A DNA stretch of 34,852 nucleotides from Candidatus Woesearchaeota archaeon. Its GTDB lineage: Archaea; Nanobdellota; Nanobdellia; Woesearchaeales; GW2011-AR9. Below are positions 5,209 through 19,475 of the stretch, piece after piece. How positions within the stretch are numbered: position 1 is the stretch's first letter; each line of letters starts with the position of its first letter. The position numbers were made by a program, and so were the translations under genes. Under the pieces are notes generated by a model. It ran no database searches and was not told where the DNA came from. It saw only the letters and a program-made list of their open reading frames with translations. Location: positions 1 through 34,852 of the forward strand of contig JABHRR010000051.1 in the NCBI GenBank assembly GCA_018670095.1, read 5' to 3'.

Positions 5209-6144
5209 ATGAATAAACAAAAGATAATTTTGGAACTGAATCACATCTTAAACACTTATAAGAAAAGAACACCCTGTTCCCAAATAAAAGTTCTTGAAGA
5301 TAGGAAATGGCTTCCATTATTTAATAATTCTAACTTGTCTAGTGAGTTTGCTTACTTAATTGCAAAAGTAATGGGTGATGGACATTTAGACTCTAATTTT
5401 ATAGTAAAGTTTTCTGGACAAGAAAAAGAACTTAAAAAATTAAAGAAAATAGTTTCTTCTATTTTAAACATTAATATTAAGAAATTTAAAATATTTACAA
5501 GTAAAGCAAAAGGAATTGCTTATACTTTAAATGTTAATGATGCTCTTCTTGGAAGAACATTGTTTTGTTTAGGGGCTCCAATGGGGAATAAAACAAAAAG
5601 CAATTTTTTAGTGCCAAATTGGATTATTGAATCTAAAAGGAATAGCCACTTGTTTTTACAAGGTTTATTAGAAGATGAACTTTCAACCGTTAAGATAGAA
5701 AAGAAAACTCATTCTAATAAACCAAGACTGAAGCTTGCTAAGTCTGAAGAATTATTACCTAATTTAAGAAAATTTTTAAATCAAATTAGGATGATGTTAT
5801 ATGCTTTCAATGTAAATTGTAGTGTAATACCTAAGAAAGCTAATCATAGGGATGATCAAACTACTAGAGACTTGTATTTCGATATTCACAGAGATAAAGA
5901 AAATATTATCCGATTCGGTGATAATGTGGGATTTAGGGTTTATGAAGAGAAATTAAAAAAACTAAATGAATGTGTTGAAATTCTAAAAAAGACAAGACAT
6001 ATTAGAAAACCTGTGATTGATGTTTCAGAAATTGTTAGATTAAGAAAAATGGGGCATAGTATTAGAAAAATAAGTAGGGAAGTAAATTTAAACAAAACTT
6101 CTGTTCATAATGTTATTAAAAAAAGTGCGGGGGAGGAGATTTGA
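5209..6144 (+). CDS. LAGLIDADG-type homing endonuclease-like protein with C-terminal HTH
   Basis: A 311-residue protein with two spaced LAGLIDADG-like helices: FAYLIAKVMGDGHL (about residues 47-60) keeps the acidic residue and GDG end, while FLQGLLEDELST (about 148-159) is more divergent, so activity is uncertain. The last 45 residues form a basic resolvase-like helix-turn-helix (RLRKMGHSIRKISREV...). Free-standing archaeal LAGLIDADG proteins are either mobile endonucleases or domesticated regulators. The last 19 bases of the gene lie antisense to the 3' end of tRNA-Leu, and the HTH-coding segment contains that tRNA's T-run terminator on the other strand. Arrival near the tRNA followed by tail capture is a possible explanation. 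Confidence 0.7.
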   Translation: MNKQKIILELNHILNTYKKRTPCSQIKVLEDRKWLPLFNNSNLSSEFAYLIAKVMGDGHLDSNFIVKFSGQEKELKKLKKIVSSILNINIKKFKIFTSKAKGIAYTLNVNDALLGRTLFCLGAPMGNKTKSNFLVPNWIIESKRNSHLFLQGLLEDELSTVKIEKKTHSNKPRLKLAKSEELLPNLRKFLNQIRMMLYAFNVNCSVIPKKANHRDDQTTRDLYFDIHRDKENIIRFGDNVGFRVYEEKLKKLNECVEILKKTRHIRKPVIDVSEIVRLRKMGHSIRKISREVNLNKTSVHNVIKKSAGEEI

Positions 6145-6147
6145 ACT

Positions 6148-6178
6148 TTTCCGCAAAAAGTATTTTCACACTTTCTGT
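6148..6178 (-). other. Non-canonical tRNA intron in the T arm of tRNA-Leu
   Basis: The bulge-helix-bulge fold is complete. The central 4-bp helix is UUCG (6184-6181) with CGGA (6153-6150). The 5' bulge is GG^A (cut between 6179 and 6178) and the 3' bulge is AA^A (cut between 6148 and 6147). An 8-bp inner helix joins 6177-6170 to 6161-6154 with an 8-base loop. This is the standard substrate geometry of the archaeal splicing endonuclease. Confidence 0.85.
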
Positions 6179-6202
6179 CCCGAACCCACTAAGAGACAGG
6201 AT

Positions 6203-6234
6203 ATCTTTCGTTGGCCGAAACCAATTGTTGATGA
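6203..6234 (-). other. Canonical-position (37/38) intron of tRNA-Leu
   Basis: The central helix is CUUA (6240-6237) with AAAG (6208-6205), three of four pairs. The 5' bulge is AG^U and the 3' bulge is AU^A, giving cuts after 6235 and before 6202. The intron also has a small UUGG/CCAA hairpin (6224-6221 with 6214-6211). Confidence 0.8.
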
Positions 6235-6423
6235 CTTAAGTCCTGCGCATTTGACCAGACTTTGCTACCCCCGCATGTCTAGAACACAGGTGTCTTTTTA
6301 TTAGTGGGTGAAGATGTAAAAATGGGGGTTATTTATAAAACTTATCTTAAAAGATTTGTTTATTGAAAATATTCCCTCACACTTTTTTTCATTAATTATT
6401 TAAACTAGCGAACTTCTGGTTAT

Positions 6424-15909: not shown

Positions 15910-18105
15910 ATGAAAGACGATGAATATGCAAAGCTTTTAGAGAAGTATAAATCTAAAATAAAAGAGGAATTTGGTGAGACCTCAGCTAAAGGTCCACTTA
16001 AAGTTAGTTCTAAAGAATATACTGAATTTAAGAGTGAACTTTATCCTGCTAGTTACAGTTTATATGAGAGAGCTTGTAATTTTTCAGAGAACTTATTGAA
16101 ATTAACAGTTGACCCAAAAAAAACTGAAAAAATTAATAAGAATATTTCTGCCTGTCATCTGAATGTTACGCCTTCCGGTGTACAATCGTTTGCTATTCTT
16201 TTACCACTTATAGTTATTGTCATTGGTTCGTTTATTGGTTTTGCGTTACCAATTCTTCTTATTGGTGAGCCAATGATGTTTTTTGTAATCTTTTTTCTTT
16301 TTGGTGGAATGTTAATGATTCCTGCTTTACAAAGAGTTCCCGATTTTATGGCCAATTCTTGGCGAATGAAAGCTTCTAACCAAATGGTTCAAAGTATTTT
16401 TTATGTGGTAACTTACATGCGGCACACTTCTAATTTAGAAAGAGCAATAGAATTTGCTTCTGACCATTTGGAACAGCCATTATCGCTTGATTTTAGAAAA
16501 ATTCTGTGGGATGTTGAAACACAGAAGTTTGGTAATATTAGAGATTCTGCTGATGCTTATTTACAAACTTGGAAAGATTGGAATAAAGAATTTGTAGAAG
16601 CATTTCATTTAGTAGAATCTTCTTTATTTGAAGGTTCAGAAGATCGACGTTTGTCTTTGTTAGATAAATCGCTTGATGTAATTCTTAACGGTACTTATGA
16701 AAACATGTTACATTATGCCCATGATTTAAAATCGCCAATGACCATGTTACACATGTTAGGGGTTATTTTACCTATTTTAGGTTTAGTTATTTTACCTTTA
16801 GTAGTAAGTTTTATGGGTGGTGGTGAAGGTTCAAATCCTTTTATGACTGCAATTTATATTTCTGTACTTTACAACATCAGTTTGCCAATTGGAGTATTTT
16901 ATTTGGGTAAGACTATCCTTTCTAAACGCCCAGCTGGTTATGGTGCCGTAGATATTGGTAATAATCCGGGGATGAAAAAGTATAAGAATGTTAATATTAA
17001 ATTTGGAAAAGCTTTTGCGATAAGTGTTAATCCATTTTATTTTTGTTTAATGATTTTTATTGTGGCAATGTTAATTGGTTTTAGTCCACTAATTTTACAT
17101 GCTCTTGGTTCACCGGATTTTGCTTTTGATGAAGATGGTCAATTTAAAATGTTAGATTATGTTTGTGCTGACTCGGGTTGTGAAGACGCTGACCGAGTAG
17201 GTCCTTATGGTATTGGGGCTTCACTATTATCGTTGATGGTTACCATTGGTTTTGGTGGTTCATTAGGTTTGTTTTATTCACTTCGTTCAAAGAATGTTGT
17301 TAAAATTAGAGAACAAACAAAAGAGTTAGAGAACGAATTTTCTTCTGCTTTATTTCAGTTAGGTAATCGTTTAGGTGATAGTATCCCCGCAGAGATTGCT
17401 TTTGCAAAAGTTGCTGATACGATGAAAGGGACCACTTCTGGAGATTTTTTTAATCTTGCTGAGAGGAATATGACTAAATTAGGGATGGGATTGGAACAGG
17501 CTGTATTTGATCCAAAAGTTGGTGCAATAGCAAGTTATCCTTCTACAGTTATCAAATCTTCAATGAAAGTATTAATTGAAAGTGTTAAGAAAGGGCCAAG
17601 AATTGCTGCTCAAGCTTTATTGTCAATGTCAAGGTACATTAAAGAAATTCATCGGGTAGAAGAGAGATTAAAAGATTTAATGGCAGATGTTATCTCTTCG
17701 ATGAAAGCGCAGGTAAAGTTTTTAACGCCAGCAATTGCGGGAATTGTTATTGGAATAACTTCAATGATTTCTACAATCTTAACTAAGTTAAGTGCTCAAT
17801 TGACTTCCTTTGCTGCTCAAGGAGAACAGTCGGGTGGTTGGGCAGACATGCTGAAAATATTTGGGATTGGAATTCCTACATTTCATTTTCAAGTCATTGT
17901 TGGGATTTATATTGTTCAAATTGCTTTTATTTTAACTTCTTTAGTTAGTGGAATTGAGAATGGTTCCGATAAATTGGGTGAAAGATATGCTTTAGGTAAG
18001 GGCTTAATTTCCAGCACGTTCTTATTTTGTTTCATTGCAGGGACAGTGATGTTATTATTTAATTTGTTTGCGATGAATATTATGAAAGGGACTTTAGGCG
18101 GTTAG
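15910..18105 (+). CDS. Two-domain T2SF/FlaJ-TadC-like membrane protein (archaeal pilus assembly platform)
   Basis: A 731-residue polytopic membrane protein with two copies of the T2SF domain, as in archaeal FlaJ/TadC platform proteins that assemble type IV pilus-like filaments or secretion machines. The first half has helices near residues 95-140, a long cytoplasmic helical domain (NQMVQSIFYVVTYMRHTSNLERAIEFA...) and helices near 290-340. The second half repeats this: FSSALFQLGNRLGDSIPAEIAFAKVA, then SSMKAQVKFLTPAIAGIVIGI and two or three further helices to the end. No partner ATPase or pilin lies nearby, so it is an orphan here. A TATA-like AATATTTTTAAAC precedes it by about 30 bases. Confidence 0.8.
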   Translation: MKDDEYAKLLEKYKSKIKEEFGETSAKGPLKVSSKEYTEFKSELYPASYSLYERACNFSENLLKLTVDPKKTEKINKNISACHLNVTPSGVQSFAILLPLIVIVIGSFIGFALPILLIGEPMMFFVIFFLFGGMLMIPALQRVPDFMANSWRMKASNQMVQSIFYVVTYMRHTSNLERAIEFASDHLEQPLSLDFRKILWDVETQKFGNIRDSADAYLQTWKDWNKEFVEAFHLVESSLFEGSEDRRLSLLDKSLDVILNGTYENMLHYAHDLKSPMTMLHMLGVILPILGLVILPLVVSFMGGGEGSNPFMTAIYISVLYNISLPIGVFYLGKTILSKRPAGYGAVDIGNNPGMKKYKNVNIKFGKAFAISVNPFYFCLMIFIVAMLIGFSPLILHALGSPDFAFDEDGQFKMLDYVCADSGCEDADRVGPYGIGASLLSLMVTIGFGGSLGLFYSLRSKNVVKIREQTKELENEFSSALFQLGNRLGDSIPAEIAFAKVADTMKGTTSGDFFNLAERNMTKLGMGLEQAVFDPKVGAIASYPSTVIKSSMKVLIESVKKGPRIAAQALLSMSRYIKEIHRVEERLKDLMADVISSMKAQVKFLTPAIAGIVIGITSMISTILTKLSAQLTSFAAQGEQSGGWADMLKIFGIGIPTFHFQVIVGIYIVQIAFILTSLVSGIENGSDKLGERYALGKGLISSTFLFCFIAGTVMLLFNLFAMNIMKGTLGG

Positions 18106-19277: not shown

Positions 19278-19322
19278 TGGCAGTTTATTTTGAATGTTAG
19301 TTGGGGCTGTAGCTCAATCTGG

Positions 19323-19349
19323 ATTGTCTTTTTTTAGAGGCAAGGGAAA
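19323..19349 (+). other. Non-canonical tRNA intron in the D loop of tRNA-Phe
   Basis: A bulge-helix-bulge-like fold: 5' bulge GG^A (cut after 19322), 3' bulge AA^G (cut after 19349), central helix AUCU (19317-19320) with GGGA (19344-19347), three pairs of which two are G-U, and inner helix UUGUC/GGCAA (19324-19328 with 19339-19343). The fold is of the relaxed kind. Confidence 0.72.
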
Positions 19350-19367
19350 GAGAGCACTAGACTGAAG

Positions 19368-19387
19368 ATACAATTGTTGTAATTGAA
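19368..19387 (+). other. Canonical-position (37/38) intron of tRNA-Phe
   Basis: A 20-base insertion with inner helix UACAA/UUGUA (19369-19373 with 19377-19381) and bulges AG^A and AA^A. The central helix is weak (C-G and G-U only). A shift of the intron by one base is equally compatible, since A flanks both cuts. Confidence 0.7.
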
Positions 19388-19475
19388 ATCTAGGTGTTCG
19401 GGGTTCAAATCCCCGCAGCCCCACATTTTTCTTAACGTTAATCTTTTTAATTTATTAAATAATATTGATATTGTA

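Follow-up and report, generated by a model that had tools for sequence, protein, structure and literature searches.

Does a gene for tRNA-Phe(GAA) that is broken in its D loop as well as in its anticodon loop encode a working tRNA, and what would the removal of two inserts demand of the cell that carries it? The gene lies in a window of 34,852 nucleotides, the whole stretch of DNA analyzed here, which corresponds to contig C89 in a MAG of Candidatus Woesearchaeota (DPANN; 1.21 Mb in 90 contigs, 84% complete; hereafter G000). An Rfam scan of the window located the gene as a match to RF00005 (gathering score 29) that has insertions in both the D loop and the anticodon loop (Table 1). ARAGORN reported no tRNA in the window with its intron options on or off. 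The window contains no Rfam intron match, and the two tRNA-Phe inserts, just 27 and 20 nt long, show no group I catalytic core. A weak tRNA-like Rfam match at 16807-16849 sits within an open reading frame (15910-18105) and was discarded.

Table 1. Features of the window and positions of the non-canonical tRNA introns in G000. G001 is a congener of G000; a slash within a motif marks the cut.
Feature	Coordinates in window	Strand	Details
tRNA-Phe(GAA) gene, two introns	19303-19423 (121 nt)	+	RF00005 50.9 bits, E = 3.1e-8; mature product 74 nt
tRNA-Phe exon 1, positions 1-19	19303-19322	+	spliced-query positions 1-20 match at 100%
tRNA-Phe D-loop intron, position 19/20 (non-canonical)	19323-19349 (27 nt)	+	relaxed BHB: GG/A bulge, 3 of 4 central pairs, 8-bp inner helix
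tRNA-Phe exon 2, positions 20-37	19350-19367	+	anticodon GAA 19364-19366
tRNA-Phe intron, position 37/38 (canonical position)	19368-19387 (20 nt)	+	relaxed BHB: 2 of 4 central pairs, 5-bp inner helix, 5-bp outer helix
tRNA-Phe exon 3, positions 38-73	19388-19423	+	
TATA-box-like TTTATAAA	19269-19276	+	27-34 nt upstream of the tRNA-Phe 5' end; from sequence
tRNA-Leu(UAA) gene, two introns	6126-6274 (149 nt)	-	mature product 86 nt
tRNA-Leu intron, position 37/38	6203-6234 (32 nt)	-	site empty in G001
tRNA-Leu(TAA) T-stem intron, position 51/52 (non-canonical)	6148-6178 (31 nt)	-	4 of 4 central pairs, 10-bp inner helix; site empty in G001
tRNA-Pro(TGG), non-canonical intron			19/20
tRNA-Glu(TTC), non-canonical intron			15/16
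tRNA-Gln(TTG), non-canonical intron			10/11
tRNA-Ile(GAT), non-canonical intron			30/31
tRNA-Arg(TCG), non-canonical introns (three in one gene)			20/21 or 20a/21, 30/31, 45/46

With the acceptor at 19303-19309 and the D stem at 19312-19315/19352-19355, all exon stems of the gene are intact, and taking out both inserts leaves a perfect 74-nt tRNA-Phe with its cloverleaf restored. As a preliminary description of the window had claimed, removal of the D-loop insert alone shortens a 36-nt D loop to the 9-nt AATCTGGGA, and a profile alignment that makes no use of folding also puts the junction at 19/20. The coordinates it gave agree with the RF00005 match, with the sequence and with the relatives described below, and the window's other tRNA gene, tRNA-Leu(UAA), does have two introns as well. 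Several features place the tRNA-Phe inserts among archaeal BHB tRNA introns: they lie inside a tRNA gene, their removal gives a cloverleaf, and the genome holds genes for EndA and RtcB. The TATA-like TTTATAAA is probably the promoter element of the gene, a role assigned from general knowledge of archaeal promoters.

We compared the gene with its relatives using a position profile of 11 intronless tRNA-Phe genes (seven from outside the family and four from within it), against which introns are charged a fixed cost and folding plays no part. Alignment of 48 candidate loci to this profile yielded 40 tRNA-Phe genes, of which 29 belong to the family and 11 to other families of the same order; the loci of G015, G061, G033, G064, G024, G022, G025 and G020 scored below 20, are other tRNAs and were dropped before counting. 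A D-loop intron is present in 12 of the 29 family genes and five have no intron at all (12 of the 49 family genomes gave no tRNA-Phe candidate, and the count may miss heavily interrupted genes). The D-loop intron sits at 19/20 in G000, G001, G002 and G013, and at 20/21 in G005, G012, G016, G021, G035, G066, G070 and G071. Of the 29, 14 carry an intron at 37/38 (the alignment puts that of G071 at 38/39, the BHB rule at 37/38), three at 30/31 and seven in the T arm. Outside the family none of the 11 tRNA-Phe genes has a D-loop intron, and seven are intronless. One locus of G035 (L150, contig C157) holds a tRNA-Phe with three introns, at 20/21, 37/38 and 59/60.

The spliced tRNA-Phe of G000 is identical to those of G001, G002, G005, G012 and G071, the intron sets differing. 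The two inserts are separable, because G005 has the D-loop intron without the one at 37/38. Both introns are found again in G001 (97% complete) and G002, which belong to the same genus as G000. Whether the D-loop intron is recent had been left for such a comparison to decide: since the three genomes of the genus all share it, as does G013 of another genus, it is not very recent. The SMC protein adjoining the tRNA-Phe region is 79% identical to that of JABHQW01 (isolate SI039_bin115, G001) and 94% identical to that of JABJOX01 (SI075_bin52, G002); we take the "SI" of these isolate names to stand for Saanich Inlet. In none of 14 named loci do the 700 bases upstream of SMC hold a tRNA-Phe. A whole-locus scan found the gene anywhere in four of the 14 (L067, L069, L070 and L072), with a 19/20 intron in L070 (contig JAFCEA010000007.1).

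The splice motif of the D-loop intron corresponds in part to the 3-base bulges first reported at its cut sites. Three bases do form the 5' bulge (GG/A), but on the 3' side there are five, in a loop (AAA/GA), and two of the three central pairs formed are G-U. The strict BHB, with two 3-nt bulges and a 4-bp helix, is the canonical form and is not required of relaxed members; it is seen at neither tRNA-Phe intron, and the junctions conform to the relaxed hBH/BHL forms that the literature includes. The plain MFE structure of the D arm (-12.5 kcal/mol) has other pairing than the BHB fold (-9.0 kcal/mol), and the D-arm piece folded alone is no better than most shuffles, with a z of -1.57 (16 of 200 shuffles are as good). 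Such folding is compatible with the intron as well as with its absence. Across the family, the GG/A bulge opens 12 of 12 D-loop introns of tRNA-Phe genes, and the scores of their central and inner helices add up to 105; when the introns were shuffled 2000 times, this sum averaged 28 and never exceeded 48. The eight 20/21 introns of the relatives show the strict motif with four of four central pairs in each (32/32 cells); their inner cells are paired in 30 of 32 cases with 16 pair types, an inner value reached by 2 of 5000 permutations. In the four 19/20 introns, which are relaxed, 12 of 16 central cells pair. Permuting the central helices (1807 and 2456 of 5000) carries no information, because the exon side hardly varies and the sequences are too alike; their likeness makes the test of the inner helix of the 19/20 introns (1245 of 5000) equally uninformative. 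The D-loop motif of our tRNA-Phe is thus a relaxed BHB, whereas the 20/21 introns of the relatives are strict.

Folding does not fix the D-loop cut, because the 3' loop is 5 nt. A 3' cut at AA/AGA would lengthen the mature D loop, and in a free two-intron search an intron at 15/16 ties with one at 19/20 (73.0 each); either bond would give a different mature D-loop sequence. We nevertheless regard a bond other than 19/20 as unlikely, given that 19/20 is the only junction that restores the GGGA loop of most intronless relatives. Much less probable still is that the insert stays in the mature tRNA-Phe, enlarging the D loop to 36 nt and adding a hairpin to it. The insert alone does form an 8-bp hairpin, but the D-loop inserts of the relatives vary in length (20-43 nt), in sequence and in junction between equal flanking exons, the loop of intronless relatives measures 9 nt, and the D-loop insert of tRNA-Pro in the same genome is missing in the congener. 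We give least credence of all to a decaying pseudogene with random insertions, with another, intact tRNA-Phe serving the cell. Such a copy could be missing from a MAG that is 84% complete; however, the exons of the present gene have intact stems and are identical to those of relatives, both of its introns recur in G001 and G002, and a Phe-specific query of G000 and G001 found no further tRNA-Phe gene.

Our preferred reading, to which we assign a probability of roughly 0.93, is a working tRNA-Phe gene with two BHB introns, at 19/20 and 37/38, as one example of a heavy and rapidly turning-over intron load in the family. The gene would be transcribed, its pre-tRNA would be cleaved at both introns, most likely by EndA, and the exons would be joined by RtcB. 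From the gene content, the single EndA is the predicted agent of cleavage at these bonds. The introns must be cut out before the tRNAs of this archaeon can function.

That introns are widespread in this genome had been suggested from the two tRNA genes of the window, and a genome-wide reading agrees. We assembled 21 tRNA genes, an incomplete list, from 16 Rfam matches, four genes found with the T-loop motif GTTCRANYC (39 chosen of 83 hits inspected) and the tRNA-Leu of the window, and placed introns by a splice solver with hand checks. Seventeen of the 21 genes are interrupted, by 24 introns in all, and nine introns in seven genes are non-canonical (Table 1). The exact bond is uncertain by 1-2 bases for several introns (Ser, Arg, Asn of G001). 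For tRNA-Pro, a free two-intron search favored other solutions, and the one-intron reading at 19/20 agrees with the congener. The term "invasion" in the preliminary description, taken to mean copies jumping between tRNA genes, finds no support: when 23 of the 24 introns were aligned pairwise, no two resembled each other more than shuffled introns do, the best score being 19 compared with a null mean of the maximum of 18.3. The tRNA counts of Woesearchaeota are underestimated because tRNA finders overlook many such genes; the Rfam model at its normal threshold misses five of the 21 genes read, and ARAGORN detected none in the window.

Comparison of G000 and G001 revealed intron sites that are filled in one species and empty in the other. 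The mature tRNA-Leu(UAA) is identical in both (86/86), and the sole intron of the G001 gene (L175, C1:35850-36250, minus strand) has 31 nt and lies at 8/9, at the acceptor/D-arm boundary; the tRNA-Leu match of G002 is interrupted at the same places as in G000. tRNA-Pro(UGG) has its D-loop intron in G000 and an empty site in G001; 73 of 75 exon bases agree, and the remaining two make up a single compensated pair of the acceptor. tRNA-Lys is interrupted in G000 (L005) and uninterrupted in G001 (L163), and tRNA-Gly(GCC) has an intron in G001 (L172) and none in G000 (L001), so that canonical 37/38 introns too come and go between the two species (Gly, Lys). These filled and empty pairs (Leu, Pro, Lys, Gly) provide the best evidence that such inserts are precisely bounded introns; turnover of tRNA introns in the genus is fast. 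How tRNA introns move becomes testable in sister species whose tRNAs (Leu, Pro) are otherwise identical but differ in whether a site holds an intron. Next to the tRNA-Leu gene, an open reading frame of 311 aa (5209-6144, plus strand) resembles a LAGLIDADG-type endonuclease by eye, and Pfam gave no match for it at E 0.001; the 3' ends of this frame and of the opposite-strand tRNA-Leu gene overlap at 6126-6144.

To characterize the splicing enzymes, we searched for RtcB (PF01139), which is present in five of five genomes, and for EndA (PF01974), which is present in 58 of 60, including G000. Both genes are incomplete in G000 and complete in G001 and G002. PF01974 has a single match in 57 of the 60 genomes, two partial matches in G020 and none in two genomes; the partial matches overlap (C13:12297-12618), perhaps through a frameshift or sequencing error. 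The family EndA is a single catalytic unit of ∼185 aa with a lysine-rich N-terminal extension. At the site of Y160-K161 in ARMAN-2, the loop has 8-10 residues in 32 of the 33 family proteins in which it is readable (the G000 protein is truncated at the loop region; that of G006 counts 12 residues by pattern, started at an earlier G, and 9 by eye), and most members have the loop lysine (GKVEL). ASL and CSL loops comprise 11 to 18 residues according to PMC12397907; a loop of this size with a Lys beside the active site, as in broad-specificity EndA, is lacking in the family. Searches at E up to 10 yielded no second EndA-like gene in 7 of 9 and in 12 of 13 genomes tested, most of them well assembled. 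A further weak PF01974 match turned up in each of G018 (E 0.014) and G034 (E 0.12), and G013 gave two weak matches at the protein level (E 0.09 and 0.17). EndA in this lineage is apparently a single-gene, alpha-type enzyme without a loop of CSL/ASL size.

According to PMC6379350, only (alpha-beta)2 and epsilon2 enzymes efficiently remove relaxed-BHB introns. If the single EndA gene makes up the whole enzyme, the family contradicts this rule. A cryptic, diverged beta subunit, which would make the lineage no different from other (alpha-beta)2 cases such as Nanoarchaeum equitans, is a serious contender that falls only a little short of even odds. Among solved chains, the G001 EndA comes closest to the alpha chain of N. 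equitans (136.8 bits), followed by those of M. kandleri and M. jannaschii (species of the solved chains taken from PMC6379350). Because the beta chains of the A. pernix and P. aerophilum enzymes do not turn up in this search, a diverged beta can escape it, and the weak extra matches in G018 and G034 point in the same direction. On the other hand, the same query does find the N. equitans beta chain (E 3.7e-13), and G001, as well as G046 and G055, whose genomes are closed or almost so, return one EndA match even at E up to 10. A seemingly plain alpha-type EndA alongside many relaxed, non-canonical introns makes it testable whether enzyme architecture limits intron diversity.

Crenarchaeota, Thaumarchaeota, N. 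equitans, ARMAN and a few others are known to carry non-canonical and multiple BHB introns, those at 20/21 in the D loop included (PMC4090602, PMC4033280, PMC8450103); for Thermoproteales and other Crenarchaeota, the same articles cite Sugahara 2008 and Fujishima 2010. The introns reported here are of this known kind, and what is notable is their density, the lineage and the enzyme question. Position 20/21 is listed in PMC4090602, and 19/20 is not in its quoted list, which ends in "etc." We found no published report of woesearchaeal tRNA introns in the open-licence literature. As in Thermoproteales and other Crenarchaeota, the introns are short, occupy D, anticodon and T positions, occur several per gene and combine canonical and relaxed BHB motifs. 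The lineage here is DPANN, however, and the 24 introns in 21 genes of G000 amount to 1.14 per gene found, a rough value from an incomplete tRNA list, compared with averages of 0.84 in Thermoproteales and 0.21 in archaea given in PMC8450103. In contrast to the transposition case of Thermoproteales, the tRNA genes of this genome give no sign of sharing intron copies.

In Caldiarchaeum subterraneum, PMC3293823 describes intron heterogeneity within a population at one locus, tRNA-Thr(GGU), linked to a mobile insertion. There too the intron content of one tRNA gene differs among close relatives, whereas here four loci (Leu, Pro, Lys and Gly) differ between two congeneric species and no insertion element was noticed in passing. 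N. equitans, with its (alpha-beta)2 EndA and split tRNAs, shares with our lineage the broad DPANN branch, the nearest solved EndA chain and relaxed BHB substrates; unlike in N. equitans, no beta gene was found here and the genes read need no split tRNA. ARMAN-2 is likewise a DPANN archaeon with non-canonical introns, and has an epsilon2 EndA with an ARMAN-specific loop (PMC12397907), whereas the EndA studied here has one catalytic unit and its loop is shorter than the 12 residues of ARMAN-2 by the same measure. We tentatively propose, rating the odds as somewhat against it, that the woesearchaeal family may be a hot spot where tRNA introns are gained and lost, the second after Thermoproteales, independent of it and equally dense, in which relaxed and non-canonical introns would be spliced by a one-gene, alpha-type EndA without a beta subunit or a CSL/ASL loop. 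If this is true, the rule restricting relaxed-BHB removal to (alpha-beta)2 and epsilon2 enzymes would be broken, and intron movement could be traced directly through identical mature tRNAs with wholly different intron sites in sister species.

Three of the tRNA loci read have unusual features of their own. A tRNA with anticodon GAC (Val) occurs in G000 (L010, 1501-1573) and in G001 (L174), with C33, T37 and G55 in both, which is unusual for a translating tRNA; the G001 gene additionally holds an intron of about 20 nt. The best splice of a further G000 locus (L007, 1501-1591, contig C71) yields anticodon AGT (Thr, A34), which is rare in archaea, and places an 18-nt intron at 37/38.
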